Of a stretch of 31,844 nt of DNA, positions 22 to 29,410 are shown piece by piece. Position numbers and translations under genes: made by a program. Source of the DNA: a virus; IMG/VR virus record IMGVR_UViG_3300032288_004140, positions 1-31,844 of that record; one strand, given 5' to 3'. The notes beneath the pieces are model-generated. The model saw only the letters and a list, made by a program, of their open reading frames with translations. It had not been told where the DNA came from and did no database searches. The number at the start of each line of letters is the position of its first letter. The stretch's first letter is position 1.

Positions 22-3000
22 TCACTCGGACATCTTCTCTATCTGCGCGGGCAGGTTCCGCTCCGCCGGCCGTTCGCCCATGATAGCCTGGAGGTCTGTG
101 GCAAGGAAGCGGAGAAGGCCCGCGCCCGGGGTGTAGGTACGGGCCACATTGTCCGCCCATTTGACGAATGCCTCTGGGTCGCCCTTGGCCACGGAGGACA
201 GTGCGCCGGACACGGCGGACACCACGGGCGGCTGCATCAGGCTGCCGTCACCCAGAGATGCGAGCGCCCCCACGGGGGCCCAGCCTGGGAGACCCTTGCT
301 TCCGATGAGAGTCTTGTACACAGGGTTTTCCCTTTCCTCGTCGAACACAATGCGTTCCACGGCCAGCAGGGCAGCCAGGGGCGCCATGTAGCGCGCGCCC
401 AGGTCGAGGGCACCATCCGCCCAGCCCTGGCGTTGCAGTGTGTCCATGATGTCGCCGGCAATCGACGTTGGCCATTTGGTGAACGTGGAGAAAAGCGGGC
501 CCATGTAACGACCGAAGGCCGACATGCTGGAACGGCTGTAGTTGAAGATGGTTTTGCCCACGAGATAGTCTGTCACTAGCTTTTGCACGGCCTCCGCATT
601 GCCCGCCTCGCGGGCCCGGGTGATGGCGCGGCGGTAGGAATCCTGCATGCCTTCAAGGAATTCCTCGGCGCCGGCAGATGAGCCGGGCTGCATCAGGTCG
701 CGGGCCACGGCCTCGCCGAGGTAGGACGTTGTGAGGCGGTTCATCCGTTCTGCGCGCTCATATAAAAACATACTTGCTTCGTTGAACTTCTCCAGCATCT
801 GTTTCGGCACGCTTCCCACCACGCCCTGCTCGATTCCGGAGCGCATGATTTCCTGGCTCGCCTTGTCCCACTGCCGCCCGAGCAGGCCCTGGGAGTCCAG
901 GAGCAGCTGGATGCCCTGAGGCGTGCCGGGGACCTTCACGACTTGCCCCGGCTGCACAGGGGTTCCCAGGGCACGCTGGAACACATTTGCCATTTGCTGG
1001 CTTGTGACCTTGACCTCTTTGCCGTTGCGCAGGTCACTTGCGAGCTGGGCCGTGGCCGCAAGCATCCTGGAGCCTCCGTAAGCGTACCCAAGTTCTGGCA
1101 CAGTCATAAGTAGGGGCTGCGTAAGGTTCTGGATTACGGCCCGCGGATTGAGGCCCAGGACCACAGGGTAGACCTGGGAGTTCATCCACTGCAGGGCCTC
1201 GGGCATCTCGGCTAGGGCCTTGGCGCCCCTCTGCACAAGCCAGTCTGTGGAGTTCTTGGCCACATCATCCAGGGCCACTTGCCAGCGGATGCTCGCCCGC
1301 TCTACGGCCGCCTTGAAGGTGTCCTGCCTTGTGCCGCCTACGACGTCTATCAGGAGGTTGTGGACATAGGTGGATGCCTTCTTGTCTCCGGCCTCTGCGA
1401 GTAGGTCCCTGGTCAGGCGCAGGTCCTCGACGGCCTCCCGAAGGTAGGCGTGCTTGAAGGTGTTCGACAGCCAACGGGCGGCGAGTTCCCCCACGCGGGA
1501 CTCCCGGATGAGCGGGGGTACTTGGTCCTCCACACGCTCCAGGGCGGAGGAGGCACGGCTGCGGAGCCTGGACATGGCCCGGCTCGGGCTCATGGCGTCC
1601 AGGACTGCCCCGCGCATGGCCTCCGGCGTAGTCATCTTCTCGCCTGTCAGATACTCCATGCTTTCCTTGAGCTGCCGGAAAGTTTCGTTGTTCCGGATTT
1701 GCTCGTACTGCGACTGGGTATAGCGCGTGAGGTCCACGCCCGTCTCCTTGCGCACCGTGTCGATGGCCCCCTGGAGGCGCGGGATTAGGTCCCGCATCGG
1801 GAGCACCTTGTGCGGCACATAGTTGTCACGCTTGGTGATGTTGACCCCGAGCGCGTTGGCTTCCTGCCGGATGGTCTCAAAGAACTTACGCCAGTCCTGG
1901 AGAAGTTTATTTGCAACAGGCTGGAGTGATTCCTCTGTGTCTTTTGGCAGGGGTAAATCCGTACCCTTGTCGAGGGCGGCATAAAGTACCTGGTCCTCTA
2001 TACCCAGCTCGTTAGTGCGCTTGATAAGCTGTTCTAGGTCAGGTGTCAGAGATGCTACATGCTGGGTCATGTAGTTGTGCATCGTGGCAAACTCATCCAT
2101 GGCCCTGGTCAAGTTGGTCCCGTACTTGGAGTCGAAGCCTGATGCTACGGCACGGCCGTCCAGGAAGTTCTTTCCAAAGTCGCCGAGCGTGGTGGCTTCG
2201 CCCTCGATTTGCAGTGCCTGCTTGATGGGTGCGTAGGCTTCGGACAGGGCAATCTGTTCAGCCCTGCGGAGCGTGCGGCCGCGTTGGATGGCGTTGCGCA
2301 CGAAATCGTCGCCCTCGACGGCGGCCACATCCTGCAGGACCTTGAAGGCATCCGCGGCGGAGCCCGAGAAGCGTTTGCCGGCGGAGTATCTGTCTGAGAT
2401 AAAGCGTGCCGCGGCTTTGAGGTCCTCGGTAACTTCCGTGGCAGCTAGGGTATTGGCCCGGAGGATGGGGTCCTTTGGCAGGTTGTCCAGGGTTTCCTGT
2501 AGTCCCAACTTCTGCAGGCGTTCCTCGGCCTCCACGGCAAGTTTCCGGATGCCGGCGTCGTCCTTCAGAATAAGTCTCGCGAGTCTGGCCGAGTCTTCGG
2601 GTACATCGTCGGGACGTATGTTTGCCAGTGCGTCCGGGAGGGCCTCCTCCAGGGCGCGGGAGGTGCCTACTTCATCGGCGGCCCGGACTGCAATGCGCTC
2701 GTCCAGTTCCGCCAGTTTGAAGGCGCGTTCCGCGGCCTCCTCAACTGTCTCCTGTTCGGCCTGCTGGGCTACGCGGGCCTCCACTTGCTGCATGGCGTCG
2801 TCACCTGCTTTGGAGGACACCCGCGGCGGGAGCAGTGCACCTATGGCCCGGGCTGCCCCGTAGAACACGCCGCCCAGGGCGGCCCCCTTGGCGGCCTCCT
2901 CAAGCTCCTCGCCCTCCTTGGACGTCGCCGCCGCCTGCGTGGCCGCGCCTCCCACAGCCGAAGCGGCCTCGTAGGCTTCCTTCAGGGCTGGGGCGGCTTT

Positions 3001-3492
3001 GACACCGGCCTTTTCGGCCAGCTTGCCTGCGCCCTTGGCCAGGCCCACGGAGCCCACGACGGCGCCGGCAGTCTCAGCCAGGGTGTCGGCCAGGGGCTGG
3101 CGCTCCTGGGCAAGCGCCTGGACTTCACCCAGGGCCTTGCGCATGGGCTCCTCTTGCATTTTCTTCATGATGAACTGGGGCACGTTCAAGGCAAACGTGC
3201 GGCCCACGAAGCCGGCAATCTCGCGGGCGGACTGGGCCGGGTCCGCGGTGATGGACTCGGGCGTATTTCCGAGATAAGCAGAAGATTCCCAGAGGGCCTG
3301 AGGGTCCGCGCCATACTTCTGGGCGATGGCGTCGATTTCTTTGCGGGGGATGAGGGCGCGGCCGGCCTTGTCCGCCTTCTCCTGTGCCAGGGCCTGGTTG
3401 AAGAGTTCATCGGCGTCGGCCTGTTCAGGGGCGGCTTGTGCCTCCTGGAGGGCTTGTTCGAAGAGCGCGTCCGCTTCAGTTTTGCTGGTCAT
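22..3492 (-). CDS. Very large putative internal virion (DNA-ejection) protein, 1156 aa
   Basis: This is the last and one of the largest genes of the putative ejection-protein cassette, and it probably encodes a particle-internal protein delivered with the DNA. The first 50 residues are acidic and Ala/Glu-rich. An Ala/Gly-rich stretch with hydrophobic patches lies around residues 130-225. The middle is long, charged and mostly helical, and contains the motif RDNYVPHKVLP near residue 555, a pattern I associate with large polyvalent phage proteins. Aromatic and hydrophobic segments lie near 770-860 and 1020-1080. No lytic transglycosylase motif was found, unlike T7 gp16. The ATG at 3492 has a GAGG site 8 bases upstream. 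The leader in front of it is a near-duplicate of the one before the next gene upstream. Position and size support the role, but the specific function is inferred. Confidence 0.7.
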   Translation of the reverse strand: MTSKTEADALFEQALQEAQAAPEQADADELFNQALAQEKADKAGRALIPRKEIDAIAQKYGADPQALWESSAYLGNTPESITADPAQSAREIAGFVGRTFALNVPQFIMKKMQEEPMRKALGEVQALAQERQPLADTLAETAGAVVGSVGLAKGAGKLAEKAGVKAAPALKEAYEAASAVGGAATQAAATSKEGEELEEAAKGAALGGVFYGAARAIGALLPPRVSSKAGDDAMQQVEARVAQQAEQETVEEAAERAFKLAELDERIAVRAADEVGTSRALEEALPDALANIRPDDVPEDSARLARLILKDDAGIRKLAVEAEERLQKLGLQETLDNLPKDPILRANTLAATEVTEDLKAAARFISDRYSAGKRFSGSAADAFKVLQDVAAVEGDDFVRNAIQRGRTLRRAEQIALSEAYAPIKQALQIEGEATTLGDFGKNFLDGRAVASGFDSKYGTNLTRAMDEFATMHNYMTQHVASLTPDLEQLIKRTNELGIEDQVLYAALDKGTDLPLPKDTEESLQPVANKLLQDWRKFFETIRQEANALGVNITKRDNYVPHKVLPMRDLIPRLQGAIDTVRKETGVDLTRYTQSQYEQIRNNETFRQLKESMEYLTGEKMTTPEAMRGAVLDAMSPSRAMSRLRSRASSALERVEDQVPPLIRESRVGELAARWLSNTFKHAYLREAVEDLRLTRDLLAEAGDKKASTYVHNLLIDVVGGTRQDTFKAAVERASIRWQVALDDVAKNSTDWLVQRGAKALAEMPEALQWMNSQVYPVVLGLNPRAVIQNLTQPLLMTVPELGYAYGGSRMLAATAQLASDLRNGKEVKVTSQQMANVFQRALGTPVQPGQVVKVPGTPQGIQLLLDSQGLLGRQWDKASQEIMRSGIEQGVVGSVPKQMLEKFNEASMFLYERAERMNRLTTSYLGEAVARDLMQPGSSAGAEEFLEGMQDSYRRAITRAREAGNAEAVQKLVTDYLVGKTIFNYSRSSMSAFGRYMGPLFSTFTKWPTSIAGDIMDTLQRQGWADGALDLGARYMAPLAALLAVERIVFDEERENPVYKTLIGSKGLPGWAPVGALASLGDGSLMQPPVVSAVSGALSSVAKGDPEAFVKWADNVARTYTPGAGLLRFLATDLQAIMGERPAERNLPAQIEKMSE

Positions 3493-3498
3493 GCTGGG

Positions 3499-3547
3499 GG
3501 CCTCAAGTGCTTGGTTTAACTAGTTTGGTAAGGATATACCTACTCCC
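3499..3547 (-). repeat. Duplicated leader repeat, copy A
   Basis: This stretch in the gap before the 1156-residue gene matches 5010-5058 (before the 463-residue gene) at 45 of 49 bases by eye. On the gene strand it contains GGGAGTAGGTATATCCTTAC followed by CAAACTAGTTAAACC. Its core can fold as a short imperfect hairpin (GTA-GG pairing with CC-TAC). It starts just upstream of the Shine-Dalgarno site, so it lies in the 5' leader of the gene. A promoter, processing site or regulatory hairpin are all possible. Confidence 0.8.
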
Positions 3548-3565
3548 AAACTCCGGGCATCCTAG

Positions 3566-3586
3566 CACGGGCCCGCGGGGGTGGGC
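3566..3586 (-). repeat. GC-rich hairpin repeat, identical to 5114-5134
   Basis: A 21-base stretch, identical at both sites, lies just after the stop of the preceding gene. At this copy GGCCC can pair with GGGCC across an 8-base loop on the gene strand. No U-tract follows, so it is not a classic intrinsic terminator. It may be an RNA 3'-end stabilising or processing hairpin. Confidence 0.7.
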
Positions 3587-3600
3587 CAGGGGAACCTTGC

Positions 3601-4992
3601 TCAGGGTACCTCTTCGTAAGCTGGGTTCTGCAGCACCACTTTGGCCCGCTCCGGCGTCATGGGCACTACGAGGTCTGTCCCCTTGCGGCGGACTTTCACC
3701 TGCGCTGGAGCTGCGGGCGCCTGGGCCTGCGCGGGCTGGCCCCCGGGGGCTGCCGCTGCGGCGGTCCGCCGTGGATTGTAGGCATCCAGGATGGCCCGCA
3801 CCTTGGAGCCCTCTGCCAGATTCCACAAGCCCTCACCTGTGGTCTCGTCCATCAGTTGGTCAATCTTGGCCGCCGGGACGCCAAGTTCCGCGGCGTACTT
3901 CCTGACCTCCTGCCTGTTGAGGTCATTGTCCTTGGCCTTCAGGCCCTCGACGGCGCCTTCCAGGTTGCTGTACGCCTTTTCCTTGCGGGCCCTTTCGGAG
4001 GCCGCTGCACGGGTTCCCGCCGCCGCAATGCCTTCTTCTTCGCCGCTCCGTTCTGTGACGGTTGTTGTGGTTGAAGTACGGGGTGCGGCACCTGCACGGG
4101 CCTGCTCCGTGGCCCTCGCGGCCTCCAGTTCAAGCTGCGCCTGGGCCTTGGCCCTGGAGGCTTCCTGTTCAGGCTTGGCGGCCTCGCGGCGCAGATTCTC
4201 CCGGCGCACGTCCGCTTGCTCCTGCTGCTGGGCCTGTGTGACGTCCCGCGCCCGTTGTTCTTCGGCCCCGAACTCGCGGGACTCCTCGCGCTCCAGCTGT
4301 GCCTGCTTGCGCTCCAGGACGCCCGTGAGGTCCTGCTGCTCGCCCGACAGGAGCTGGCGTTCCTTTTGCCCACGGGAGAGGGCGGCATCCACGGCCTGCT
4401 GCCAGTCTGAGCGGGTGAGGGTCACGCCGCCCACTATGTTCTGCCCACGGGCCAGGCCCTGCTGGGCCGCGGCGATGGTGATGGCCGCATTGGCCAGGGC
4501 CTCTGCCACGCCGGCCCAGCGGGCGCGGAGGGCCTCCGCCTCGGATGCATCCTTGGCCTCCGCACGGCGGGCTGCGTAGGTCTCATTGAGTTGTTTGATT
4601 TCCGAGTCCAGAAGTTTCATCTGGCCCTTGAACAGGGCCTTCTCCTCGGGCGTGCGCCGTGCGGCCGCCAGCTCTTTCTGCCTTTCTTCGAGGTCGCGGG
4701 GTTCTGCGATACCAAGCTCCTGGAGGGCCGGCAGCTGGGGGGCCTTGATGTCCTTGGGCGTGTAGCCCGTGGATGAGGTGGTTGTCTGTGTCGTGGCGGA
4801 CCTGGACTGGCTTTCCTTGGAGGTGGGCACCGCGCCTGCGCCGCCGGCCTCAGGGGCCAGGGACTGTTCCGCCGGGGGCATTTCCTCGGGCTTGGAGCCC
4901 CCGCCAAATATGGCGTAGCCCAGGCCGCCCACGCCCGCCGCGGTGCCAATGCCCTTGAGGAGTCTCTTTTTGTCTGCCGGTTTGGTTGCCAT
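3601..4992 (-). CDS. Putative internal virion protein with coiled coil, 463 aa
   Basis: I do not recognise a named family. Residues 10-32 form a Gly-rich weakly hydrophobic segment (KGIGTAAGVGGLGYAIFGGG) after a Lys-rich N terminus. Residues about 100-300 are long charged Ala/Glu/Gln/Arg helices typical of coiled coil. A Pro/Ala/Gln-rich linker near 405-430 precedes a short basic C-terminal tail. The ATG at 4992 has AGGAG upstream at good spacing. The gene sits between two other Ala/Gln-rich genes in the cassette downstream of the nozzle, where T7-like phages encode ejection proteins. A structural virion role is inferred from position and composition. Confidence 0.65.
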   Translation of the reverse strand: MATKPADKKRLLKGIGTAAGVGGLGYAIFGGGSKPEEMPPAEQSLAPEAGGAGAVPTSKESQSRSATTQTTTSSTGYTPKDIKAPQLPALQELGIAEPRDLEERQKELAAARRTPEEKALFKGQMKLLDSEIKQLNETYAARRAEAKDASEAEALRARWAGVAEALANAAITIAAAQQGLARGQNIVGGVTLTRSDWQQAVDAALSRGQKERQLLSGEQQDLTGVLERKQAQLEREESREFGAEEQRARDVTQAQQQEQADVRRENLRREAAKPEQEASRAKAQAQLELEAARATEQARAGAAPRTSTTTTVTERSGEEEGIAAAGTRAAASERARKEKAYSNLEGAVEGLKAKDNDLNRQEVRKYAAELGVPAAKIDQLMDETTGEGLWNLAEGSKVRAILDAYNPRRTAAAAAPGGQPAQAQAPAAPAQVKVRRKGTDLVVPMTPERAKVVLQNPAYEEVP

Positions 4993-5009
4993 TGTGTGTG
5001 CTCCTGGTT

Positions 5010-5093
5010 GGCCTTAAGTGCTTGGTTTAATTAGTTTGGTAAGGATACCCCTACTCCCTCGCTCCGCTCGGTCGTGTCCCTTCGGAACCTCCC
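5010..5093 (-). repeat. Composite repeat, copy B (leader duplicate plus 58-base inverted-repeat arm)
   Basis: Bases 5010-5058 match leader copy A (3499-3547) at 45 of 49 positions. Bases 5036-5093 match the reverse complement of 14900-14957 at 57 of 58 positions. The single difference falls in a small GTTCC-GAA-GGAAC hairpin; in this copy the change still allows pairing as a G-U wobble. The element lies in the 144-base gap before the 463-residue gene, so it is in that gene's leader. Confidence 0.9.
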
Positions 5094-5113
5094 ACCACTA
5101 CCTGGCAGGGTAC

Positions 5114-5134
5114 CACGGGCCCGCGGGGGTGGGC
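5114..5134 (-). repeat. GC-rich hairpin repeat, second copy
   Basis: This is identical over 21 bases to 3566-3586 and begins right after the stop codon of the 285-residue gene. GCCC pairs with GGGC on the gene strand. It has the same relative position in both gaps: after the upstream stop and ahead of the shared leader. Confidence 0.7.
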
Positions 5135-5136
5135 TA

Positions 5137-5994
5137 CTACTGAACCCCGGCTCCCTGGGCCCGGCGTTCCTCTGCGGCCCTCTGGGACTCCTTGGCCTGC
5201 ATCGCGCCGCCCACGGCGCCGGCCCCCGCGATAGCAAGCCCTGCCGGCGGGTAGATGGGTGTCACGGCGGCACCCACGGTGCTCACGGCGGACCAGATGG
5301 CGGCCTTGTTCGCCGCATCCTTGGCCAGTTTCTGCATGTCCTCTTCCAGTTTCTGTCTGGCCTGGGCAATCTTCAGGGTCAGCTCCTGGTTGGCTTCAGT
5401 TTCCTGCGACTGGAGCAGCTGCTCCTCGGCCTGCTTCAGGATGGTGAAACTCCGCTGCAGGAGAAGCTGTTTGCGCTCCAGGGCCTGGCTTACTTCCTGC
5501 TCATAGTTTGCAAGCTCCTCCTGCGTCCGCGCGTGGTTCAGTGCGTAGTCGGCCAGCTGTCTTTCGTTCAGCATGGTCTGGCCAAGCTCATCCTGCTGGA
5601 ACCTGAGTTGCTGCGTGAACAGCTCATCCTCGGCGAGGTTGGCATCGGTCTGCAGGATGCCGGTAAGCTCCCGCCCCTGTGCCGCCACCTGGCGTTTGAG
5701 CATACGCAGGCTGTCCTGCTGCTGGGCCTGCTGGATGGCCAACTCGTCCTGGGCAGCCTGCTGCTGCTCCTGTGCGCCCTGCTGCACTGCCTGCGTCACG
5801 GCCTGCTGCTGGGCCGCGCCTGCCTGTGCGCCTGCCTGGGCCAGGGTACGGGGACCCGCCTGCGCGAGGCCGCCTGGCTGCTGTGCGAGCCCCAGGGGCG
5901 CGGTCATAGTTTGCAGGCCCTGGGCGGCCTGCGTGCGCCGCTGCTGCGTGGCCGGGAATTCGAGGGCTGTCTGTGCGGGTGTTCTGAGACCCAT
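5137..5994 (-). CDS. Putative internal virion protein, Gln-rich coiled coil, 285 aa
   Basis: Residues about 20-225 are dominated by Gln, Ala, Glu and Leu, including a run of Gln-Ala repeats around 75-95 and long helices with little Gly or Pro, consistent with an extended coiled coil. A hydrophobic Ala/Gly/Pro stretch (VTPIYPPAGLAIAGAGAVGG) lies near 245-265 and could interact with membrane. The ATG at 5994 follows AAGGAG with 8-base spacing. Composition and position resemble the T7 gp14/gp15 class, but no family signature was recognised. The function is inferred. Confidence 0.65.
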   Translation of the reverse strand: MGLRTPAQTALEFPATQQRRTQAAQGLQTMTAPLGLAQQPGGLAQAGPRTLAQAGAQAGAAQQQAVTQAVQQGAQEQQQAAQDELAIQQAQQQDSLRMLKRQVAAQGRELTGILQTDANLAEDELFTQQLRFQQDELGQTMLNERQLADYALNHARTQEELANYEQEVSQALERKQLLLQRSFTILKQAEEQLLQSQETEANQELTLKIAQARQKLEEDMQKLAKDAANKAAIWSAVSTVGAAVTPIYPPAGLAIAGAGAVGGAMQAKESQRAAEERRAQGAGVQ

Positions 5995-6015
5995 GGTACA
6001 AGCTCCTTTGTGTAC

Positions 6016-6954
6016 TCAGGCGTTGGGAAGGGCTGTGGTGTCGAAGTTTTCGCCGACGCCGGGCTCCGCGGTTTCCTCGTAGGCGAACGGGCTTTCGTCC
6101 GCGCCCGCGGAGGCTGCTGGTGTGGTGCTGCCCACAGAGTCTGTCTTGCCCAGGGTTGCGTACGTCTGGGCGCCTGCGGACACCAGCCCACTCAGGCCGG
6201 TGTATTGGTTCGCCGCGGCCTGCGTGGCCACTTGCCCTGCGGCCATATTCAGGGCCATGTTGAGGTCCATGTTGGCCAGATACTTTTTGAACTCGCGGTC
6301 ATCCGCACCGAGGGCCCTGCGGAACTGTAGGTCCGATTTGAGCAGGTCCTCCTGGTCCGCGAAGGTTGTCTCCAGTACGGCGTTCTTGAAGCCTGCCTGG
6401 GAGTCCAGGCGCTTGCGCCGGCCCGTGGCCTGCAACTCGTCGGTGTACTTCTTGGAGGACATACGTGTCAGGAAGCCTACTTGTTCCGCGGCCAGCTTCT
6501 GCTTGGCAAAGGACATCTTCGCCCGGCCTTGCTGCAGGCCACGGGCGATGTCGGTGGCGCGCTTGCGATACTCGTGGGTCTGATTGAGCTGCTGCTCTGA
6601 GAGTGCGTCCAGTTCGGCTTGCATGCCGCGAGTCATTTGACTTTCGGCCTGCTGCACGCGGCCCGCGGCGGCGCCGGCTGCTCTCTGTGCGGCCTCGGTC
6701 TCCTGCTGGGCCGCGAATGTGGCCGCGGTCTCCAGGTCGGCCGCGGGGGCGGGCGCCAGGGTGTCGGCCTCGCGGCCGGTGGCAGCCACGGCGGCGCGGG
6801 TCAGGGCCCCGGTCTGGCCGCCTGTGGCCGCGCCTGTGGGCGCGAGCGGGACAGGCTGCGAGGCCAGGGGAGTACCCGCGGCTGCGGCTTGCTGCGGAGT
6901 TTGTCCCAGACCCTGGAGGTTTTGCTTGATGCGTGTGAGTGCTGCGGATGCCAT
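6016..6954 (-). CDS. Putative internal virion protein, 312 aa
   Basis: The N-terminal 110 residues are Ala/Gln/Gly/Pro-rich and look disordered. A helical region follows from about 100 to 245, with many Gln, Arg and Lys residues. The C terminus is acidic and low in complexity. The stop of the preceding gene (6957) and this ATG (6954) are 3 bases apart, and a GGGAGG site lies inside the end of that gene, so translation is probably coupled. No known domain was recognised. It is assigned to the ejection-protein group from its neighbours. Confidence 0.62.
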   Translation of the reverse strand: MASAALTRIKQNLQGLGQTPQQAAAAGTPLASQPVPLAPTGAATGGQTGALTRAAVAATGREADTLAPAPAADLETAATFAAQQETEAAQRAAGAAAGRVQQAESQMTRGMQAELDALSEQQLNQTHEYRKRATDIARGLQQGRAKMSFAKQKLAAEQVGFLTRMSSKKYTDELQATGRRKRLDSQAGFKNAVLETTFADQEDLLKSDLQFRRALGADDREFKKYLANMDLNMALNMAAGQVATQAAANQYTGLSGLVSAGAQTYATLGKTDSVGSTTPAASAGADESPFAYEETAEPGVGENFDTTALPNA

Positions 6955-6956
6955 TC

Positions 6957-9275
6957 TTAGTAAACCTCCCTCAACCCGGTAACTTCTTTGCGTGCTTGTC
7001 TCAGTTCCCTACCCATTTTATTCAGTGCTTCCTGGTCTTTGTCTACTTGTTTTTTCACTAATGGGTTCGTGGCATATGCTGGGTCTTTTTTCGCGTCCTT
7101 AACGGCTTTTTCGAAGTCGCGAAAATTCTTTTCAGCACTATCAAGCTGCAGCTCCATAGTGCGTATGGTGCTTCCGCCAAATCTTACCTCTCTCCCTCTA
7201 ATCCCTGCAGGCCCCTTGTCAACAAAATCCCGTCCACCCTTCAATGCATCCTGTACCTTTTTTAGATATGCTGCGCTGTCCCGATTGGCTACCGTAATGT
7301 CTTTCCCGGGACCAGAAGCGCCCCAGCTCACGAGGGCTTTTTTCTCGTCTGTCTCTTTTTTCTGGGCAACAGCAGTCTGGGCCTCGGGGCTCCGGATGTC
7401 CAGGCCCTTGAGGTAGGCGCCGTAGGTTTTGAGCTTGGCCTGCGCGGCAAGACGGTCTGCCAGGGGTGCCTGCGCGTTTCCTGCCAGAGTGGACAGGCGT
7501 TTCATTTCCGTGTTCAGTGTCGTCATGTTTGCCAGGGCAGGGTCCCCTGTGAGCTTGAGGGTATCCTGCAGGTTTGCGCGTGCCGCACTCAGGGCAGGGC
7601 TTGTCAGGCCAGAGAGGCCCGCCGCCACGGTCTGGGCATCCAGGCCCAGCACCGGGGCCATGGTCTGCGGGGCCGCCAGACCGCCGTTCGCCGCGGTGCG
7701 GAAACGGCTGGAGGTCGCGGCCAGTTCGGCGTAGGCTTTCACGTTGTCCGCCGGGTTCCCCGGGAGGCTCGCAATGGCGTCCATGACTTTGGGGTCCTGG
7801 GCATAGGATTTGGTCAGGGGGTTTGCAGCAAGGCCGTCATAGACCTCAAGGAGCCGCGCCACTTTTGCCTCGGCCACGGGACGCGCCCGGGGGTCCCCCA
7901 GATTCTGCGCGGCGACCTGGGCGCGGATGATTGTCCGCGCGGGCTCCGGGAACTTCGCCACATCGAAGGGCTTGCCTGTCATAGCGGACGGGTCGATGCC
8001 GGCCTCTTCCAGAAGGCGTGCAGCCAGAGGGTTTTGCAGGAAGGTTTCGCCACCAAGGGCCGCCCTGTTTTGCTTGTTCAAGTCCACCAGCGCGTCGATT
8101 TCATCCTGGGCATTTTGCACCACGGGCTTCAGGGCTGGTTTGTTCTTCTCGGCCCAGGCAGCAAGCGCGGGGTCGGCCTCCCGGAGCTTGTCCAGGGCAA
8201 GCCTGCCCTCGGGCGTGTCCTGCAGGGCCGGCGCGAGTTTGGCAAGCAGCTCCGGGTTCGTGGTGATTTCGGCCACGGGAACTTGCAGGCCGCCGATGCG
8301 CACCGTGGTGCCGGCCTCGATTTGCTTCTGCAAGTCCCCGGCCCGTTCCTGTTCCGCCAGGACGTTCTGGTAGCCGAGGAGCTTGAGCCTGTCCAGGGCC
8401 GCGGCCTTGGCGGCGGGGGACGATGCAGGGTTTGCGAGCGTGGCCTGCATGGCGCCGATGTCTTGGAACGTGCGCATGTTGTATGCCTGCACAGCGGCGG
8501 GAAGGTCCGCCACTTTGACCTGCGACAGGTCCTTGCCTGTGATGGCCTGCACGGCGGCCTGCAAGTCGGCGAGCCCGCCCGCGAAGCCCAGCGTCTTGGC
8601 GTCTGCATCTGAGAGGGCGGACATGGCCGTCGCCTGGGGGTCCAGGCTTCCAAGGAGTTGGCGGGCCACGTCCAGCGGGGCGCCCGTGGAGGCATCCCGA
8701 ACGAAGGACTTGAGGTCATCAAGGCTGAAAGTTTCGCCGGCCTTGGCCCCGGGCTTGAGAAGGCCCGTGAGTTCGGCGGCCTCCACCGTGGACAGACTGC
8801 CGGTCAGGGCTTTGCGCGTGAGTTCCTCGGTGCGTGCCACGTTGGCCTGTCCAACCTTCTGGGCCAGGGCTGTCTGGTCGAAAGTCATGGTGTCTGTGGC
8901 GGATTTGGCCTGGGCTCCCAGGGCCTGCTCTTTGACAAGCTCGGAGACGCGCTGCATGGCCGCGGGCAGGCCGGACAGGGGCTGGGTCATCTGCGCAGCC
9001 TGCTCGGGGCGTGCGCCCTGCTGCTGGCTTGTGGCGATGGCCGTGCGGGTATCCTGCACTGTGGGCTGGGCCGCGGTGCGCACGGTGCGCTGGATGGCGC
9101 CGGCTGTCTGTTGCGGGGTGCCAATCATCTTGACCGCATCGGGACCGGCCCCGGCGGCGCTTGCCAGGACCTGCGATTGCTGCGGGATAGTGCCCGTCTG
9201 GGCCGCGGCCTCATCCAGTGTGGTCTGCTGGAGGCCGCCACCCAGGGCGTTTTTGATTGTGCTGCGGAGGCCCAT
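6957..9275 (-). CDS. Large putative internal virion protein, 772 aa
   Basis: Residues 1-120 are Gln/Ala/Thr-rich. The centre (about 120-620) is a long Ala/Leu/Asp-rich helical region with many short helices. The C-terminal 130 residues are Lys-rich and coiled-coil-like, and their DNA is visibly richer in A and T than the rest of the gene. The ATG at 9275 follows GAGGA with 8-base spacing, 13 bases after the nozzle stop codon. By order (nozzle, then this) and size it fills the slot of an ejection or tail-core protein. No enzymatic motif was found. Confidence 0.62.
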   Translation of the reverse strand: MGLRSTIKNALGGGLQQTTLDEAAAQTGTIPQQSQVLASAAGAGPDAVKMIGTPQQTAGAIQRTVRTAAQPTVQDTRTAIATSQQQGARPEQAAQMTQPLSGLPAAMQRVSELVKEQALGAQAKSATDTMTFDQTALAQKVGQANVARTEELTRKALTGSLSTVEAAELTGLLKPGAKAGETFSLDDLKSFVRDASTGAPLDVARQLLGSLDPQATAMSALSDADAKTLGFAGGLADLQAAVQAITGKDLSQVKVADLPAAVQAYNMRTFQDIGAMQATLANPASSPAAKAAALDRLKLLGYQNVLAEQERAGDLQKQIEAGTTVRIGGLQVPVAEITTNPELLAKLAPALQDTPEGRLALDKLREADPALAAWAEKNKPALKPVVQNAQDEIDALVDLNKQNRAALGGETFLQNPLAARLLEEAGIDPSAMTGKPFDVAKFPEPARTIIRAQVAAQNLGDPRARPVAEAKVARLLEVYDGLAANPLTKSYAQDPKVMDAIASLPGNPADNVKAYAELAATSSRFRTAANGGLAAPQTMAPVLGLDAQTVAAGLSGLTSPALSAARANLQDTLKLTGDPALANMTTLNTEMKRLSTLAGNAQAPLADRLAAQAKLKTYGAYLKGLDIRSPEAQTAVAQKKETDEKKALVSWGASGPGKDITVANRDSAAYLKKVQDALKGGRDFVDKGPAGIRGREVRFGGSTIRTMELQLDSAEKNFRDFEKAVKDAKKDPAYATNPLVKKQVDKDQEALNKMGRELRQARKEVTGLREVY

Positions 9276-9288
9276 GTTGCTTGTCCTC

Positions 9289-12200
9289 TTACGTCCGGGC
9301 GGTGGAGGTATTTGCCGCCTGTGTGGTTCCCTTGGAGGAGAGACCCGTTACGCGGTAGCTCAAGGATACCAGCACCACGGGCGCGTTCAACTGGAAGTCC
9401 TCCAGACGCACCTGATGATACACTGCCTTGCTGGTGGCTGGCGAGTATCTAATTGTCCTTTGTTTTACGCCGACTTCAGATGACAGCCCGTCACGCACGG
9501 TGCTAGCCTCGACGGTGGCCGCGTCCAGCGTGGTGAAGCTGTCCCGGAGGTCCACGGCCTGGGATACCACGGTGCCAGTCAGGCTGACCCCCGTGCCATC
9601 CGAGGACACGGGCAGGCGGAACCCGAGCAGGATGTGTAGGACCTTTTTGCGAATGGAGGGGTCGCCGAAGTCCAGGGCCCGCGTGGTGACTTGCATCCCG
9701 GAGCCCGTGACTTCGATGGTCTCGGAACCACTGTCGAACGCCCGCACCATGCCCACGGGGGCGTTGTCATCGCGGTAGGACTCGGGCTCTTCCACTTGCA
9801 GGAACCGAAGCACCTTGCCTGTCCAGGTTCCCGCAAAGGCTTCATTGAGGAGGTTACAGGCGTTGGTCACAGCGTGGTTGTCATAGCGAGACCAGCCGCC
9901 CAGCTCACCCTTGGCTTCCGCCGTGTAGTCGTAGCTGAAGGTGCCGGAGTTCCGGGGGGTGTCACCCTCGTCGCCAGCATCCGTCTGCGCCGGGAAGAAT
10001 AGGCGATAGCGGCGCGTGGCCGCGTAGTTGTGGGCCTGCATCACGGCAAGGGCCTCCGCGGAAGTATCTGTCACCAGGCTCCAGAGTCTATCCAGGTTCG
10101 CCCCGAGAGGCTCGATAGTCTGTGCACGCGTGAGGCGAAAGATTCCAGAAGTGTGGGCAAAGATGATGCCCTGGCGTGTCACGGCGATGGAACCAGGGGC
10201 CGCGCAGCCCACACCCTGGCTTTCCACTTTGGCGAGTTGCCGCGTGGCGGGGTCCACGAAGTAGATGCTGTCGGTTTTGAACACCACAAGCTGCCCGGAT
10301 GTCACGGCACCACCGAAAGCGGACTCTCCGAAGAATGGGATGATGCCGGTGATTTCCTGCCCGTCCGCGGGGTTCACGTCCACACACGAGAGCGTGCGGG
10401 CGGGGTCCGCGCTGAAGGGGTTATCCACAAGCTCGGGGTAGTTTGGGAGGGCCAGAAGGAGGCGCGACGGGCGCAGGAGTTCCACGGAAGTTATGGTGGC
10501 ATCCTGGCTGCGGCTCACGTCGTTGGCAAAAAGGATGAACCCGCCACGGTTGGCCACGGCCTCTGTGTATCCCAGTTCTAGGGTGGGATAAAGTTGCTCC
10601 TCCGCCGTCAAGGAGGCGTTGTCCACCATTTCCAGAAGCACGGATGCACCGTCCGTGGGGAACGTGTCGCCAGCCTGGGCTGTGGCAAATGGGATGCCTG
10701 TGCTCGCACGCATGGCAACATTGAAGGCCATGGCAAACCGAGTGGTCACCGAGTACAGCGTATTGGATGGGAAGGTATCCAAGTTGTTTGAACCAGAGCG
10801 ACGAGACTCCTGCCGGTCGTAGTTGAAATCAGCCCCCAGGTACACAGGGATGTGGGAGTTAATGTCTGCGGGGACGTTGGGGTCGCCAGCCAGTACAGCG
10901 GTAGTCACGTCACTGCCTGCGTTGTAGACATAGGACGAGATACCAGGCAGATTGATACGGACAATCATGGGTGTGGCCGTGCCCGTGTTGCCGGCTTGCT
11001 GCGTCGATGCCACTTGCCACCAGCCCATAAACGTGGTGCGGGAGACGGTAGATGCTGTAGTGCGGCACAGGTACACCCATTGTCCCGCGGTCATGGACCC
11101 ATCCACACCGCTGATGGATACGTCAAAGTAGCCGGAACCCACTGTGATGGTGCTTATGGTTTGCACCTTGCCGCCTACCCCCGCGGACTCCACAAACCGA
11201 AATCCGAATACGTTGGCATTGTCCGCGGTGTACGTGCCCGCATACGCAGAGGACACGCGGTAGAGCCAGGACTCGGACAGGTTAAATGTCTGAGATGGCT
11301 GTGCCACAAGTTGAAGCAGGATGCGCGGGTTACTTTTCAGGTTGGCATAGGCCGCCTGGTTCCCGATGGTGGTGATGTACTTGGCCCGGGGCACGGGCTC
11401 CACTGTGGGGAAACTGACCCCGGCCGCCCCGGATTGCGACAGGATGGGAGCCAGGGCGTCGGTCTGTGTTTGCTGCAGAAGCAGGTCCGGCACCGCGTCA
11501 CGGATGTCGAGGTAGCTGCCGGTGCAGCGGCCCTCTGCCTGGTTGTATCTGTGCCCCGCGCCAAAGTACATGTCCTGCTCGGCGATGAAGTAGTAGGGCG
11601 GGACCCCTGTGCCTGCCGTGCGGTACACGCGCACACGGATGCGGTCGTAATCCAGGCCGGGGAACACAGGCATGCCCAGGAGACGCAGGAGGATGCCCGT
11701 GGTGCTTGTGATTTGGACCTGCACGTCCTCGGAGGCTGCGGAAGCAGTGGCCAGGACAAACCCATTGGCATCCACAGCGTGGGCCCGGAAGTAGTACTTG
11801 TAGGTGGCTTGGGACTGCGTGGTCAGACTCGTAGTGCCCGCAGGGATGCCATTCAAGCTCTGCGGTTCCACGAACGTTACTACGCCTGTGGTGGCGTTTA
11901 CCGTGGCCACAGTGACGACCCTCAGTGTGCCGCCGCTTGTGGCCGTGACCTTTTGTCCCGGCTGCAAGACTTCCGTCTGGTTGGCCGTAGTTGCGGTGAA
12001 AACCCCGGAGGTTGTGGTGCCGGCAATGGCCGTCCCTGATGGGAGTGCAATGGTCCCCCCGCCTGTGGTGCTTGTCACCAGGAACAGGGCGGGATTCCAG
12101 CGGGGCAGGCCCGCACGCAGGATGTAGTTTCCGTCCCATTTCTGTATAGGGTCCTGGTAGTTAGTCAGGAACAGGTTGTTGTTGGCCATGGTGCTGTGGA

Positions 12201-14772
12201 CCAGTTCCTGGTCAGAGTACGGGTCCACGCGGAATTGCCTTGGCTGGTACTGCAGGCTTGCTGGGAGCGTGTCCGAAGTGGAACCCGCTGCCTCGCCCGG
12301 GACAAATCTGGACGCCACATCCACGGTGATGCTGGACGTGTAAGAGTCGATGAAAGTGCCCTCCAGGGACAGCTCCATGTGGCGAGGGTACAAACGGCAG
12401 AAGATTTCCGCCTCTCCTGCGTAAGTCGGGAGAAGCGCGGCCAGGGTCGAGCCTGCTGGGGGGTACACTGTCATGGAGCGCGAGGTTGCGATTGCCGACA
12501 CAATCCACTCACCGGACAGTCTCCCAGCGCGACTCACAAAGATGGTGTCCCCCGGCGAGAAATACTGAGTGAAGTCCGCCGCAGTCGCGTAGAATGTGGC
12601 CGCCGTACCATCCGCGTTTATGTCCAACCTTGTCGCAACTAGGTCTGGGTTCCTGTAAATGCGCCGCACGGTATACCGCGTAGGCTGGTCTTCGATGGTG
12701 AGCACGTCCCCCGGCACCACATCGTCTATGTTTTCTGTGATGGTGGAAGTGCTGTCCCGCAAGGAAATGACACGTCCAGTGTGCTGCAGGAGGCATGTCT
12801 GTCCGTAGGGGATTTCAGTGGTGCCAGTTACGGGGCCCACGAAAATATAGGCCGAGATAGTACCCTGCACCTGCAAGCTGCCGCCAGACGGCAAGGACTG
12901 TGAAAACAGTGTGTCCCCGACTGCAGGCCAGTATCCGTTTCCTACAGATGCGTTGTCCACGCGGATACGGTCGGTGAACACCCCGGCCTGTCCTTGGTTG
13001 GTGAAATCCCAGTCGGAGCTGTCGAGGTCGGGCATCCTGATGGTGAATACAATTTGGCTTGCCGAGCTGAAGTTCACTGAGAGGACGGGCCAGTCCCCAT
13101 CGAACTGGCTGTACACAGAGAAGCGTAAAGAGAGGAGGTCAGCACAGGCTGAGGTATCTTCGGGGTAATACAGGTCCGACTCCGAGCCTGACGAGTTGAG
13201 TGTGGTGACACGGTTGGGCGTGGACACCGTGACCTGGGCCTGACCAGCGGTGCCATTGTAGGCGAAGTTTGTGACCTCGGCCCAGCCCTCCGACCCGCCG
13301 TCAATAGTGTACCCCCCACGTGTCCGCAGCACGGTGTCGCCCGTGCCGTGGAACAACGGGGCAATTGTGCTGTCCAGTGCCACGAAATGCCGGAGGTATG
13401 GGTACCTGCGGGGCATGCCGTAGGTAGTGCCCTCGGCCACGCGGGATGCCTCGCGGAAGAGGTTCCACCCCAGGGTGGCACAAAGATATGCATCACCCTC
13501 GGATTTGTAGCTGTCGGTGCTTGTGACCCAGCCCGGTTTACCTGTGCGGGGTTCGGCATAGATGCTGGCGTGGTCCAGGCCCCAGAGTGTGAGTGCAGTG
13601 GAGCCGACTCCGGCGGACACGTCCACACCGGCAATAGTATGCGGCTCGACGCAAATAATGTTCGTACGCGCAGTGGCGTACTCCAGGAGTACGCGGAAGC
13701 TGGCCGACGATGCCGTGTTGTTTTGGAAGGTAACCGTAGCTGTATTTGCCACGGCATCCACGACGATGCTGTCAGGGATTACTGCAGTGAGTAGTCCTGC
13801 GTTGTCGTCCAAGTAGGGTTGCACGAGGACAAAATGGGTTTCAAGGTCACTAAAGGTGACAGTGATAGTTTCACCTGCTGCGGCTGTGCCCGTGGCGACT
13901 TGAGCCATGCCTATGTTGCGAAGACACACGCGGACCGTGGTAGCAGGGTCTGTGGTCCAACGGATTTGGATGTTACCGCCTGTGTTTCGGATGACATCGG
14001 GAGTAAACAGGGTGGCAGTGGTACCGGAGATACCGAAACACTGCACCATGATGTCAGTGCCGGTGAAACCGTGCGTGGCTGCCAGGATGTCCACGTAGTT
14101 GTAGCCAATACCTGGCGAATAGGGAGAAGTAAAAGTTGTGGTGTACCGCTCTCCCGCCAGGCTGCTGTTGTCAATGGCGTAGATATACGCCTTCAGGTCG
14201 TCTGGGTCTGGGTTGATAATTTCCGTGGTGACGTCAAAGGTCCCCGTGTCGATACTTTGCGCGTTGGGGATGATGACCGAGTTGGAGCGTGTCGTCTCGG
14301 AGGTGGACTCCACAATGCCGAGCATCACGGTAGCATTCCCAATCCCGTGCTCCGCCGCCGTAAGTGTCTGTGTAGTCGTCGAGAGTGCTGTGAAGGTTTT
14401 CCTAACGTCCACTGAGAATGTGGAGTAGTAGCGGTAACCCGCAGTGGTATCAAAGTCGTAACCGCTGGTACCAAAGTTGGCACGGCCTTGCACAAGGATG
14501 GGGGCGGGCTTGAGTTGGCTTACGTCGATGGAGTCATCGAGAGTGAAGCAGATGGGACCAAGGGCACCGGCGGTCTGCTCCACACTTACGACGCGCAGCG
14601 GGAGCCAGCCGTGGGTCTCGAAACCTTTACGTTTCTCAAGCTGGCCCTCGGGGGCTGCGTCCGCGTTGAGGCAGTCTTCGATGTGCCCGGCCGGGATGGC
14701 GGCTTCGGCTGCCAGCTGGTTGATGCCACGGGTGAATGCTTTTTCGACAATGCTTTGGTACTGGATGGCCAT
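9289..14772 (-). CDS. Very large tail nozzle protein (T7 gp12 / P22 gp10-like), 1827 aa
   Basis: This is likely the tail nozzle (tail tubular protein B) through which DNA leaves the virion. The first 60 residues carry the pattern seen in nozzle proteins: AEAAIPAGHIEDCLNADA followed by LEKRKGF. The last third contains beta-propeller-like strands typical of this class, including VVFKTDSIYFVDPAT, then GCAAPGSIAVTRQGIIFAH and SGIFRLTR. The middle roughly 1000 residues are Thr/Ser/Gly/Val-rich beta sequence and make the protein far longer than T7 gp12 (about 800 aa). The start is set at the ATG at 14772, preceded by GGGAG with a 10-base spacer. The frame stays open 49 codons further but has no ribosome site there. 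It lies downstream of the adaptor and upstream of the ejection cassette, as expected. Confidence 0.85.
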   Translation of the reverse strand: MAIQYQSIVEKAFTRGINQLAAEAAIPAGHIEDCLNADAAPEGQLEKRKGFETHGWLPLRVVSVEQTAGALGPICFTLDDSIDVSQLKPAPILVQGRANFGTSGYDFDTTAGYRYYSTFSVDVRKTFTALSTTTQTLTAAEHGIGNATVMLGIVESTSETTRSNSVIIPNAQSIDTGTFDVTTEIINPDPDDLKAYIYAIDNSSLAGERYTTTFTSPYSPGIGYNYVDILAATHGFTGTDIMVQCFGISGTTATLFTPDVIRNTGGNIQIRWTTDPATTVRVCLRNIGMAQVATGTAAAGETITVTFSDLETHFVLVQPYLDDNAGLLTAVIPDSIVVDAVANTATVTFQNNTASSASFRVLLEYATARTNIICVEPHTIAGVDVSAGVGSTALTLWGLDHASIYAEPRTGKPGWVTSTDSYKSEGDAYLCATLGWNLFREASRVAEGTTYGMPRRYPYLRHFVALDSTIAPLFHGTGDTVLRTRGGYTIDGGSEGWAEVTNFAYNGTAGQAQVTVSTPNRVTTLNSSGSESDLYYPEDTSACADLLSLRFSVYSQFDGDWPVLSVNFSSASQIVFTIRMPDLDSSDWDFTNQGQAGVFTDRIRVDNASVGNGYWPAVGDTLFSQSLPSGGSLQVQGTISAYIFVGPVTGTTEIPYGQTCLLQHTGRVISLRDSTSTITENIDDVVPGDVLTIEDQPTRYTVRRIYRNPDLVATRLDINADGTAATFYATAADFTQYFSPGDTIFVSRAGRLSGEWIVSAIATSRSMTVYPPAGSTLAALLPTYAGEAEIFCRLYPRHMELSLEGTFIDSYTSSITVDVASRFVPGEAAGSTSDTLPASLQYQPRQFRVDPYSDQELVHSTMANNNLFLTNYQDPIQKWDGNYILRAGLPRWNPALFLVTSTTGGGTIALPSGTAIAGTTTSGVFTATTANQTEVLQPGQKVTATSGGTLRVVTVATVNATTGVVTFVEPQSLNGIPAGTTSLTTQSQATYKYYFRAHAVDANGFVLATASAASEDVQVQITSTTGILLRLLGMPVFPGLDYDRIRVRVYRTAGTGVPPYYFIAEQDMYFGAGHRYNQAEGRCTGSYLDIRDAVPDLLLQQTQTDALAPILSQSGAAGVSFPTVEPVPRAKYITTIGNQAAYANLKSNPRILLQLVAQPSQTFNLSESWLYRVSSAYAGTYTADNANVFGFRFVESAGVGGKVQTISTITVGSGYFDVSISGVDGSMTAGQWVYLCRTTASTVSRTTFMGWWQVASTQQAGNTGTATPMIVRINLPGISSYVYNAGSDVTTAVLAGDPNVPADINSHIPVYLGADFNYDRQESRRSGSNNLDTFPSNTLYSVTTRFAMAFNVAMRASTGIPFATAQAGDTFPTDGASVLLEMVDNASLTAEEQLYPTLELGYTEAVANRGGFILFANDVSRSQDATITSVELLRPSRLLLALPNYPELVDNPFSADPARTLSCVDVNPADGQEITGIIPFFGESAFGGAVTSGQLVVFKTDSIYFVDPATRQLAKVESQGVGCAAPGSIAVTRQGIIFAHTSGIFRLTRAQTIEPLGANLDRLWSLVTDTSAEALAVMQAHNYAATRRYRLFFPAQTDAGDEGDTPRNSGTFSYDYTAEAKGELGGWSRYDNHAVTNACNLLNEAFAGTWTGKVLRFLQVEEPESYRDDNAPVGMVRAFDSGSETIEVTGSGMQVTTRALDFGDPSIRKKVLHILLGFRLPVSSDGTGVSLTGTVVSQAVDLRDSFTTLDAATVEASTVRDGLSSEVGVKQRTIRYSPATSKAVYHQVRLEDFQLNAPVVLVSLSYRVTGLSSKGTTQAANTSTART

Positions 14773-14803
14773 GACTATGAGTCTCCCAGGCGTTTGCGCG
14801 GAG

Positions 14804-14828
14804 GCAGGCCGGGCATGTCCGGCACTGC
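14804..14828 (-). other. Hairpin in the nozzle-gene leader
   Basis: On the gene strand a 25-base imperfect inverted repeat forms about nine base pairs with a single bulge and a six-base loop. It lies between the candidate -10 element at 14838-14846 and the nozzle start, so it would be within the 5' untranslated leader. Its role is unknown. Confidence 0.45.
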
Positions 14829-14837
14829 ATTGCTGGG

Positions 14838-14846
14838 ATTGTAGCA
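14838..14846 (-). promoter_or_regulatory. Candidate extended -10 element before the nozzle gene
   Basis: The gene strand reads TGCTACAAT, an extended -10 (TGn plus TACAAT, five of six to consensus), 66 bases before the nozzle start. No good -35 hexamer is visible at 16-18 bases, which extended -10 promoters can tolerate. It lies in the 212-base gap, the longest in the nozzle/ejection part of the window. This is a motif match only. Confidence 0.35.
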
Positions 14847-14899
14847 CGCCAGACAGGGGAGGGCCAGGCAGGACAGGAGCGGGCCTTCCGGCCGCAGGG

Positions 14900-14957
14900 G
14901 GGAGGTTCCGAAGGAACACGACCGAGCGGAGCGAGGGAGTAGGGGTATCCTTACCAA
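14900..14957 (+). repeat. 58-base inverted-repeat arm, copy C
   Basis: This is the reverse complement of 5036-5093 with one mismatch. It lies in the gap between the HEAGH-protein gene and the nozzle gene, on the strand opposite to copy B. It includes GTTCC-GAA-GGAAC, a perfect small hairpin, and the GGTATCCTTACCAA core shared by the whole family. Together with copy B it brackets the nozzle and three ejection genes. Confidence 0.9.
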
Positions 14958-14984
14958 TGCTGCTAGAACAAAGGGTTAGCCCTA

Positions 14985-15515
14985 CTACTTCCCCGTCCTC
15001 CGCATCACGAAGTCCGAGAGGGACTCGTCATCCCGCGGCGTACCCGAGACCCTATCCAGGGCCTTTCGGATGGCTCCCAGGGCGCCGGTACGGTCCCTCC
15101 GGTACTCCTCGGCCTGCTTCACGGCCTCCTCGAAGGCCCGGTCCGCGAAGCTCGGCTCCCTACGCATGCGCTCCATTTCGGCCTTCTGGACCTTCGGGCC
15201 CAGGCCCAGGAAACTCTTGCGGGCTGCCTGCACCTTGCCGCCGAGGCTGTGCAGTTCGTCGCGTTCCGCCATGTGACCAGCCTCATGGAGCAGCGTCAAG
15301 TCGCGGAGCCTTGGCACTGCCTCTGGGCCCTCCAGGTCTGGGGACTCTGCCACGCGCACTGTGCCCTCCGGGTCCCGCGGGTCCACCATGCCAGCCTTGC
15401 CCTTGTGGGCCAGCCCGGCGTCGCGGAGGATGCGCTGGATGCGTCCACGTGGGCCCCAGGCTCTTTCGCTTGCCCGGCGTAGGGTACTTTCGTCTTGTTG
15501 GTCATTTTTTCCCAT
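14985..15515 (-). CDS. HEAGH-motif protein, possible zinc metallopeptidase, 176 aa
   Basis: The sequence LTLLHEAGHMAERDE (residues 74-88) contains HExxH at 77-81, the zinc-binding and catalytic signature of zincin metallopeptidases. A third ligand could be a Glu in the helix FEEAVKQAEEYRR (128-140), but this is inference. The N terminus is basic and the C terminus charged; no signal peptide or membrane segment is seen. The gene overlaps the end of the upstream gene by 14 bases, with AGGTG close ahead of the ATG, suggesting coupled translation. It lies between the adaptor group and the nozzle gene, so a virion-associated protease or peptidoglycan-acting role is possible. A five-residue motif in a short protein is limited evidence. 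Confidence 0.65.
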   Translation of the reverse strand: MGKNDQQDESTLRRASERAWGPRGRIQRILRDAGLAHKGKAGMVDPRDPEGTVRVAESPDLEGPEAVPRLRDLTLLHEAGHMAERDELHSLGGKVQAARKSFLGLGPKVQKAEMERMRREPSFADRAFEEAVKQAEEYRRDRTGALGAIRKALDRVSGTPRDDESLSDFVMRRTGK

Positions 15516-22877: not shown

Positions 22878-23723
22878 TTAGGGGGTGCGTGCCCCTTTGG
22901 CAAGATTCTCCTCGGCCCACAATGGTTGCAAATTGGACCAATGGAAGGCCGCCCTTACTTCCTCTTCTTTAGTCAAATCAAAAGAAGCAATTGGACGAAT
23001 ATGGTCTACATGCCACCCTTTGTACCCATAATTATCCCAGCTCATCCCTTCGCGAAACTGAGACTCCAAATGTGCCCTTGCCTGTTCCCAACTACAACCT
23101 AATAGATTTTCTGTAGTAGATGGCTTTGCCTTACCAAGAAGTGCTTGTCTAGTTCGGTTTCTAAGGGTGTGTTTAAGCCTTTCGAGCGGATTTGTACGGC
23201 GCCGCTGTATTTGTGCCTGTGTCCATTTTTTCCCGTGCTTTGCAAATGACAACTTTGCCCGCTGTTTTCTGCTAGTCTTATGCTTGGCGTAAGACGCGCG
23301 TTGTTGTTCCTTAATTTTTTCCTTGTTTTCCGCTGCATACTGTCTTTTTAATTCGTTAATATGCGCTCTATTTGCTGCCCGGTACTCTCTAGCCCATACC
23401 TTATAAGCCTCAGGGTTTTTCTCCCTCCACTGCGTAATTTTTCCCTCTTCTTTCTTTTTTTCCCATGCTTTTTTTCTACGTTCTAAGATTTCTTCCCTAT
23501 GTTTGGCATAGCTGGTTTGTTTTTGAGATAGTACCTTTTCTCTGTTTTCTTTTAGGTATTGGCTCTGAGCGGCTCTAATCTCTGCGCGTTTACTTTGATA
23601 TCGCAGTTGATTATATTGCTTGATACAACTTTTACACCTTTTTTGCAGGCCATCTTTACTGCTGGATAATTTATGGAACTCACTATTCTCTTTGTGTTCG
23701 CCGCATGTATCACATTTCTTCAT
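22878..23723 (-). CDS. HNH endonuclease with N-terminal zinc ribbon, probable homing endonuclease (HNH-1), 281 aa
   Basis: Residues C4, C7, C30 and C33 form a CxxC...CxxC zinc-binding pair. Residues 35-190 are Lys/Glu/Arg-rich helices with repeated KEK and Y-KH patterns, probably DNA contacting. The C terminus has the HNH module: WHVDHIRPIASFDL (D240-H241), then HWSNLQPL (N264) and ENLAKG. The gene is much richer in A and T than its neighbours, suggesting transfer. It lies between the major capsid gene and the 262-residue gene. The ATG at 23723 uses GGGGG with an 8-base spacer, and that GGGGG is the 3' arm of the terminator at 23727-23759. It interrupts no coding sequence, so it is free-standing. 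Confidence 0.88.
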   Translation of the reverse strand: MKKCDTCGEHKENSEFHKLSSSKDGLQKRCKSCIKQYNQLRYQSKRAEIRAAQSQYLKENREKVLSQKQTSYAKHREEILERRKKAWEKKKEEGKITQWREKNPEAYKVWAREYRAANRAHINELKRQYAAENKEKIKEQQRASYAKHKTSRKQRAKLSFAKHGKKWTQAQIQRRRTNPLERLKHTLRNRTRQALLGKAKPSTTENLLGCSWEQARAHLESQFREGMSWDNYGYKGWHVDHIRPIASFDLTKEEEVRAAFHWSNLQPLWAEENLAKGARTP

Positions 23724-28768: not shown

Positions 28769-29410
28769 CTAACTCCTTGCTCCCTTTTGCAAATTTTCTT
28801 TTGCCTCTAAAATCTGCAAGTTAGAGAAATGTACGGCAATCCTTAACTGTGCCGGGTCCATCAGGTCGAAGCTGGCGAGAGGGCGGATGTGGTCAATGTG
28901 GTACTTGCCGGGCAATGCCTCTGAATAACGCTCACCGTAGCGAGCAAGACATTGCTCGTCGAACATTTGTAGCAATTCCTGTACACTACATCCTAGGTCT
29001 TGAACTGCGGAACCTGTTTTGTGCTTACTACGCAAAGCGTTATACAAGCGCGCCCGGAGGATATGTGAAATTCTAAAGGAAACATCACGACTGCGCCTAG
29101 CCTTGGTGTACGCATTAGATTTTTTTATTCTCTTTTCTTTGTTTTTCTTATACCAGGTTGCTCCTTGCGCTAATGCTTTTTCTTTGTTTTGTTGATAGTG
29201 TAGCTTCCTATCTTCTTTCCTTTTTTCCTTATTAGCATACGCCCACTTGGCGTTAACCTCCAATGTAGCTTCTCTATTTTCTTTATAATGTCTTTTTCTT
29301 GCAGATTTGGCACAATCAAGGCAGGTATGGGAAATACCATTTTTGCACGTTTTTGCTTTTTTAAATTCGCACAAATGTTTTTGGACGTTGCATTTTTTAC
29401 AGACTCTCAT
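28769..29410 (-). CDS. HNH endonuclease with N-terminal zinc ribbon, probable homing endonuclease (HNH-2), 213 aa
   Basis: C4, C7, C30 and C33 form the zinc ribbon. A Lys-rich helical middle contains repeated NKEK units. The HNH module is YHIDHIRPLASFDL (D173-H174), then HFSNLQIL and ENLQKG. The ATG at 29410 overlaps the terminase stop (ATGA), so translation is probably coupled; an in-frame start three codons earlier is possible. It is AT-rich compared with terminase and portal. Its final codons carry GGGAGC and AAGGAG, the latter being the ribosome site of the next gene. It shares KTGSAVQDLG near residue 130 with HNH-3, so these two are the closer relatives. Confidence 0.88.
   Translation of the reverse strand: MRVCKKCNVQKHLCEFKKAKTCKNGISHTCLDCAKSARKRHYKENREATLEVNAKWAYANKEKRKEDRKLHYQQNKEKALAQGATWYKKNKEKRIKKSNAYTKARRSRDVSFRISHILRARLYNALRSKHKTGSAVQDLGCSVQELLQMFDEQCLARYGERYSEALPGKYHIDHIRPLASFDLMDPAQLRIAVHFSNLQILEAKENLQKGARS

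Follow-up and report, generated by a model that had tools for sequence, protein, structure and literature searches.

Near-identical inverted repeats in an uncultivated phage genome belong to a family of dispersed composite sites

Binding of a phage repressor to a stoperator halts transcription elongation. Stoperators are short repressor-binding sites that lie across the genomes of cluster A mycobacteriophages such as L5 and Bxb1, mostly in intergenic gaps (PMC3029335). The SAS/ESAS sequences of cluster K mycobacteriophages are short repeats near gene starts, about half of them with an upstream inverted-repeat module; the SAS itself, 13 bp long and facing almost always in one direction, includes the AGGAG of the ribosome-binding site at 3-7 bp from the start codon (PMC3203893). 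We analyzed a pair of 58-base inverted repeats in a viral genome fragment of 31,844 bp, IMG/VR record IMGVR_UViG_3300032288_004140 (hereafter the window, meaning this whole stretch). The two copies, at 5036-5093 (site B, minus strand) and 14900-14957 (site C, plus strand), had been described in a first-pass annotation as a bracket around virion genes. Instead, they are members of a family of sites also found elsewhere in the genome, and we lean toward the view that these dispersed composite sites bind a phage or host regulator.

The reverse-complement match at 57 of 58 positions was re-found and grows to 61 nt at 97% identity (5036-5096 and 14897-14957); the flanks cannot be aligned, and homology ends at the repeat edges. 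We estimate that a 58-nt match with one mismatch in 31.8 kb has a chance expectation of roughly 1e-24 (from some 5e8 pairs of positions, x 175 / 4^58), and a chance origin is impossible. The copies lie in the gaps 4993-5136 and 14773-14984. Both had been called intergenic, which holds if the last enclosed gene starts at the ATG near 14772, but the longest open reading frame (ORF) there starts at a GTG at 14919, within the element. Four ORFs are indeed enclosed, all on the minus strand (5137-5994, 6016-6954, 6957-9275, and 9289-14772), but their earlier names, a nozzle and three ejection genes, are positional: a PHROGs search with all four gave zero matches, and the enclosed ORF of 1827 aa matched nothing in Pfam or PDB. 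The single difference between the copies, said to keep a small hairpin paired through G-U, does so on one strand (GTTCCGAAGGGAC) but leaves a C-A mismatch on the other.

Each 58-base copy joins a 23-bp core to a GC-rich module of about 36 bp. When 2.9 million viral contigs were scanned for the core, one record gave a family-bearing match, IMGVR_UViG_3300042914_004341 (61,793 bp; hereafter G1); in the comparison with relatives that the first-pass annotation had proposed, the element is thus present in this one. The virion proteins of the window are encoded in G1 too, with identities that reach 99%. The two records are collinear, G1 running in the reverse direction, and their DNA is about 92-95% identical across most of the window. 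Because this collinearity covers both sites, with a copy at C, a core at B, and a window-type GC-rich module at 36980-37021, we judge it unlikely from the alignment that the pair is an assembly artefact. Searches for further relatives with the nozzle and portal proteins returned G1 only, and a search with TerL returned G1 plus two contigs at 26% identity. The lineage is poorly sampled: when TerL was compared with 50,697 phage records by tblastn, none matched.

Scanned with a position matrix derived from 12 copies, the window has four sites and G1 has eight (near 601, 2413, 6738, 14417, 21238, 31198, 32711, and 57210). The copies form a discrete class, scoring 49-70 in both genomes, with the next best score at 7.1 and a maximum of 9.1 over 60 shuffled genomes. 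In the window, site A (3525-3547, minus strand) is a core only, gene-sense and upstream of ORF 22-3492, and is 84% identical to site C over 31 nt. Site B, which lies upstream of ORF 3601-4992, is a long form whose module (5058-5093, minus strand) is attached to a gene-sense core. Site C, also long, is a core plus module (14900-14935, plus strand) antisense to the genes; on one side of it is ORF 14985-15515 and on the other the gene with a start near 14772. Site D (20926-20948, minus strand) is a core only, GGTAGGTATATCCCTACC, inside a fibre-like ORF (19442-21397); it scores 53, far above the shuffled-genome maximum, and is kept in G1 at 14417-14439. The fibre-like ORF also holds two 152-nt direct repeats of 73% identity (19776-19927 and 20586-20737), present in G1 too.

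Several other matches were set aside. Two IMG/VR core matches, one in an AT-rich coding region and one in a GTACC/GGCC-rich repetitive tract, lie on contigs without a portal gene and are not family. Matches by blastn in phages (weak, inside Microbacterium and Streptomyces coding genes), in plasmids (short, mostly haloarchaeal), and in Haloarcula SH1/PH1 (23 nt) had E values of 0.1 or worse and were judged chance, as was the sole match in genome_contigs, a 23-nt overlap with the module in Gemmata. Among viral contigs, the module was not found outside the window and G1.

The core, GGGAGTAGGTATATCCTTACCAA, is a partial palindrome with 5-8 of 9 dyad pairs, the maximum of 8 occurring in the fibre-gene copy; at least 6 of 9 pairs are found in 1.2% of genomic 18-mers. 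In eight aligned copies with otherwise unrelated spacers, an invariant TTA stands at offsets 20-22 nt past a 21-nt core, which places it roughly three turns of the helix away from the centre of the dyad. Two adjacent invariant columns appeared in 0 of 20,000 draws of eight random stretches. The downstream arm of site B (5010-5035, minus strand) has an AA-N18-TTA spacer and the invariant TTA, both common to site A; the arm of site C (14958-14983, plus strand) also has the TTA and is diverged from G1 at this locus. Some copies carry the GC-rich module on the core side opposite the TTA, with a dyad GTTCC-GRA-GGAAC that is perfect at site C (GTTCC-GAA-GGAAC) and reads GTTCCGAAGGGAC at site B. Of its two versions, the window has GGGAGGTTCCGAAGGAACACGACCGAGCGGAGCGAG, and the three long G1 copies have GGAGGTTCCGGAGGAACACGACGACCGCAGGGAG. 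The window-type module at G1 36980-37021 has no core and fills the gap preceding a start codon.

Core-only copies are gene-sense, and long copies are antisense to genes and lie 19-29 nt past stop codons; site B is the exception among the long copies, a gene-sense core with a module added. Two G1 sites lie within coding sequence, one in the fibre-like gene common to the window and the other in the gene (1789-2991) for a 400-residue winged helix-turn-helix protein that resembles replication initiators or regulators. Fold energies of the copies equal those of shuffles on both strands (z between -0.7 and +1.25). This mixed orientation, the location in coding sequence, and folding no better than shuffles favour a site that is read in DNA, not RNA. 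Two other identities were tried and rejected: a leader peptide, as the frame common to the three long G1 copies is not found in the window version, and attC-like sites, as most copies do not match the motif GTTRRRY. As a separate observation, the gene of a collagen-repeat protein in G1 (56411-57232) has its likely start and a lipoprotein-like signal (MFLRNLTRFVTFSLLTLAAGGC) running out of a long copy of the element.

The sites are comparable to stoperators and to SAS/ESAS and are a member of neither. As with stoperators, short sites are dispersed through a phage genome. The putative binding sites described here, however, combine a partly palindromic stretch of 23 bp with a distal TTA and number about eight per genome. 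They lack a single orientation, since short copies are gene-sense and long ones antisense. The GC-rich module extends some cores in the way that the optional inverted-repeat extension does in SAS/ESAS, but the core stands about 30 nt or more before starts, and sites are also antisense and inside genes. The lone module at G1 36980 is the exception in spacing, ending a few nt before an ATG. We assign the family to neither group because its sites do not all face one way, as stoperators do, and do not stand at the distance from start codons that marks SAS.

Comparison of orthologous sites shows replacement of the units themselves. At the B locus, G1 (31198-31220) has only a core between flanks nearly identical to those of the window; site B of the window equals this orthologous site plus about 36 bp and a core variant, GGGGTATCC, otherwise found at site C. 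The G1 ortholog of site C (21236-21290) has a different module version: the unit from TTA arm to module end is identical at 65 of 72 positions, with many gaps (92 alignment columns), and the flanks at 176 of 189 and 142 of 148 (~93-96%). Among the three long G1 copies, identity is 96-98% over 53-57 nt, yet these copies differ from those of the window. Given the module added at B, the different C unit, and the likeness among the G1 copies, copies are therefore closer within their own genome than to their orthologues. The simplest cause would be ectopic gene conversion between copies, judging from these alignments. Conversion is likelier than transposition because a Y1_Tnp transposase was not found, and the gained module directly abuts the pre-existing core, which suggests that conversion was guided by homology. 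Boundary or homing-associated phage exchange sites are similar in being gene-boundary repeats with apparent local sequence replacement, and here too an HNH gene replaced one copy; however, the exchanged item is the unit itself, and no adjacent-gene exchange was seen.

In the explanation that we favour, a dimeric DNA-binding protein, coded by phage or host, would recognise the core and the TTA, and its binding would control transcription at operon boundaries as a repressor, an activator, or an elongation block. A C-type unit may have overwritten an older core at B by recent ectopic gene conversion or recombination. The inverted arrangement would then merely reflect two sites facing opposite ways and would have no function itself. 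A more specific and less probable form is that this uncharacterised phage lineage has a family of two-part operators, in which the core and phased TTA would be the conserved recognition unit and the GC-rich module would be swapped as a cassette between sites and homogenised per genome.

Several observations weigh against regulator binding. No cognate protein was identified, and use in both orientations misfits a simple promoter. The site is carried by two closely related genomes only, so its conservation is partly common ancestry. The portal-upstream core (G1 6738-6760) was lost in the window on entry of an HNH gene, so that copy is dispensable. No sigma-70 promoter-like sites overlap the copies in the A/B and C regions, and no intrinsic-terminator-like sites do either, there being none at C and those of the A/B region lying elsewhere.

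Of the alternatives to regulator binding, a small non-autonomous mobile element survives best, although we consider it improbable. In the REP/RAYT system, GTAG stands ahead of an imperfect palindrome 20-40 bp long, and the same genome encodes the cognate Y1 (TnpA-REP) transposase. REP elements with this tag are short, palindrome-containing extragenic repeats mobilised by RAYT (Y1) transposases, and GTAG is the tag of one REP super-family (PMC3733652). Under this alternative, a REP- or MITE-like unit of 58 bp, or the module, would insert as a cassette through a host or phage transposase. The mobile or copied element proposed in the first-pass annotation is partly supported by the module gained at B and the differing unit at C relative to G1; the module standing alone at G1 36980, the near-identical copies in both orientations, and the GTAG within the core of a short palindrome-containing repeat point the same way. 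However, the bases after GTAG form no significant hairpin here, copies are few, and the distal TTA is fixed. Y1 transposase (PF01797) is absent from both phage records under searches in which controls gave matches. No target-site duplication was seen, the gained module directly abuts an existing core, and neither other viral contigs nor the apparently chance Gemmata match provides another home for the module.

Phage-specific promoters, each driving its adjacent gene for a phage RNA polymerase or sigma factor, are a less probable alternative still. In their favour, the 23-bp sites are discrete and nearly identical, most of them lie shortly upstream of genes, and the TTA spacing is fixed, but the sites occur in both orientations relative to genes, and at site A and G1 6738 a start just past the TTA would give almost no leader. 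There was no sigma-70 match. The single-subunit RNA polymerase family PF00940 was likewise without match, a negative that control genomes shared.

Less probable again are RNA-level elements at gene boundaries, whether terminators or processing or stability hairpins. The long copies do lie shortly past stop codons, and a 5-bp stem and its GRA triloop are kept in both versions of the module. Yet there is no T-run, nothing terminator-like at C, and no Rfam match, and the fold energies, the mixed orientation, and the two copies within coding sequence all argue against it. The same evidence divides the earlier suggestion of regulatory hairpins: regulation is plausible, but folds equal to shuffles, use of both strands, and copies in coding sequence speak against the hairpin. 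Inversion of the 9.8-kb block through the repeats, by site-specific or homologous recombination, would fit their 57/58 identity and inverted orientation but is very improbable, as the block has the same orientation in G1, the sole relative, where site B lacks the module, tyrosine and serine recombinases (PF00589 and PF00239) are absent from both records under searches in which controls gave matches (the window record being a fragment), and inversion would set four virion genes against their operon.

A few further observations concern these genomes and the contigs met in the searches. HNH-type endonuclease-like genes are found at 22878-23723, 28769-29419, and 30812-31582 in the window and at 67-570, 2847-3734, and 11811-12509 in G1, an unusually high load for a 62-kb phage, and their positions differ between the two. 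The gene at 28769-29419, HNH/endonuclease-VII-like, stands in place of the terminase-portal core site of G1; AAGGAGTTAGACCAATG is kept and the core lost. G1 also encodes a family A DNA polymerase with an apparent intein (43273-46701); matches to inserts of phage NrdA and NAMPT genes span residues 547-907 or so, with a LAGLIDADG-like domain at 776-843. In the two contigs with distant TerL, 3300037420_001135 and 3300037313_001238, a 28-bp repeat that lacks G, CATCTCCCTCAAAACCTTTCAATCTCA, occurs about ten times (e.g., 7258-7285 in 3300037420_001135). Its copies face both ways, and several stand just upstream of ORF starts; this is another dispersed phage element. An unrelated 93-kb viral contig has, near 26737-26811 (about 5400-5730 of L025), a tract extremely rich in GTACC and GGCC.

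Dispersed binding sites of this kind would be among the few direct views of gene regulation in an uncultivated phage. With the motif defined to the base in its core, spacing, TTA, and module, a search for the cognate protein becomes possible. If the two-part operator reading is true, the phage would switch sites between gene-sense short and antisense long forms, so that recombination would rewire a dispersed regulatory network in a modular way. The two genomes show sites overwriting one another, an observation relevant to the spread and divergence of regulatory networks in phages.
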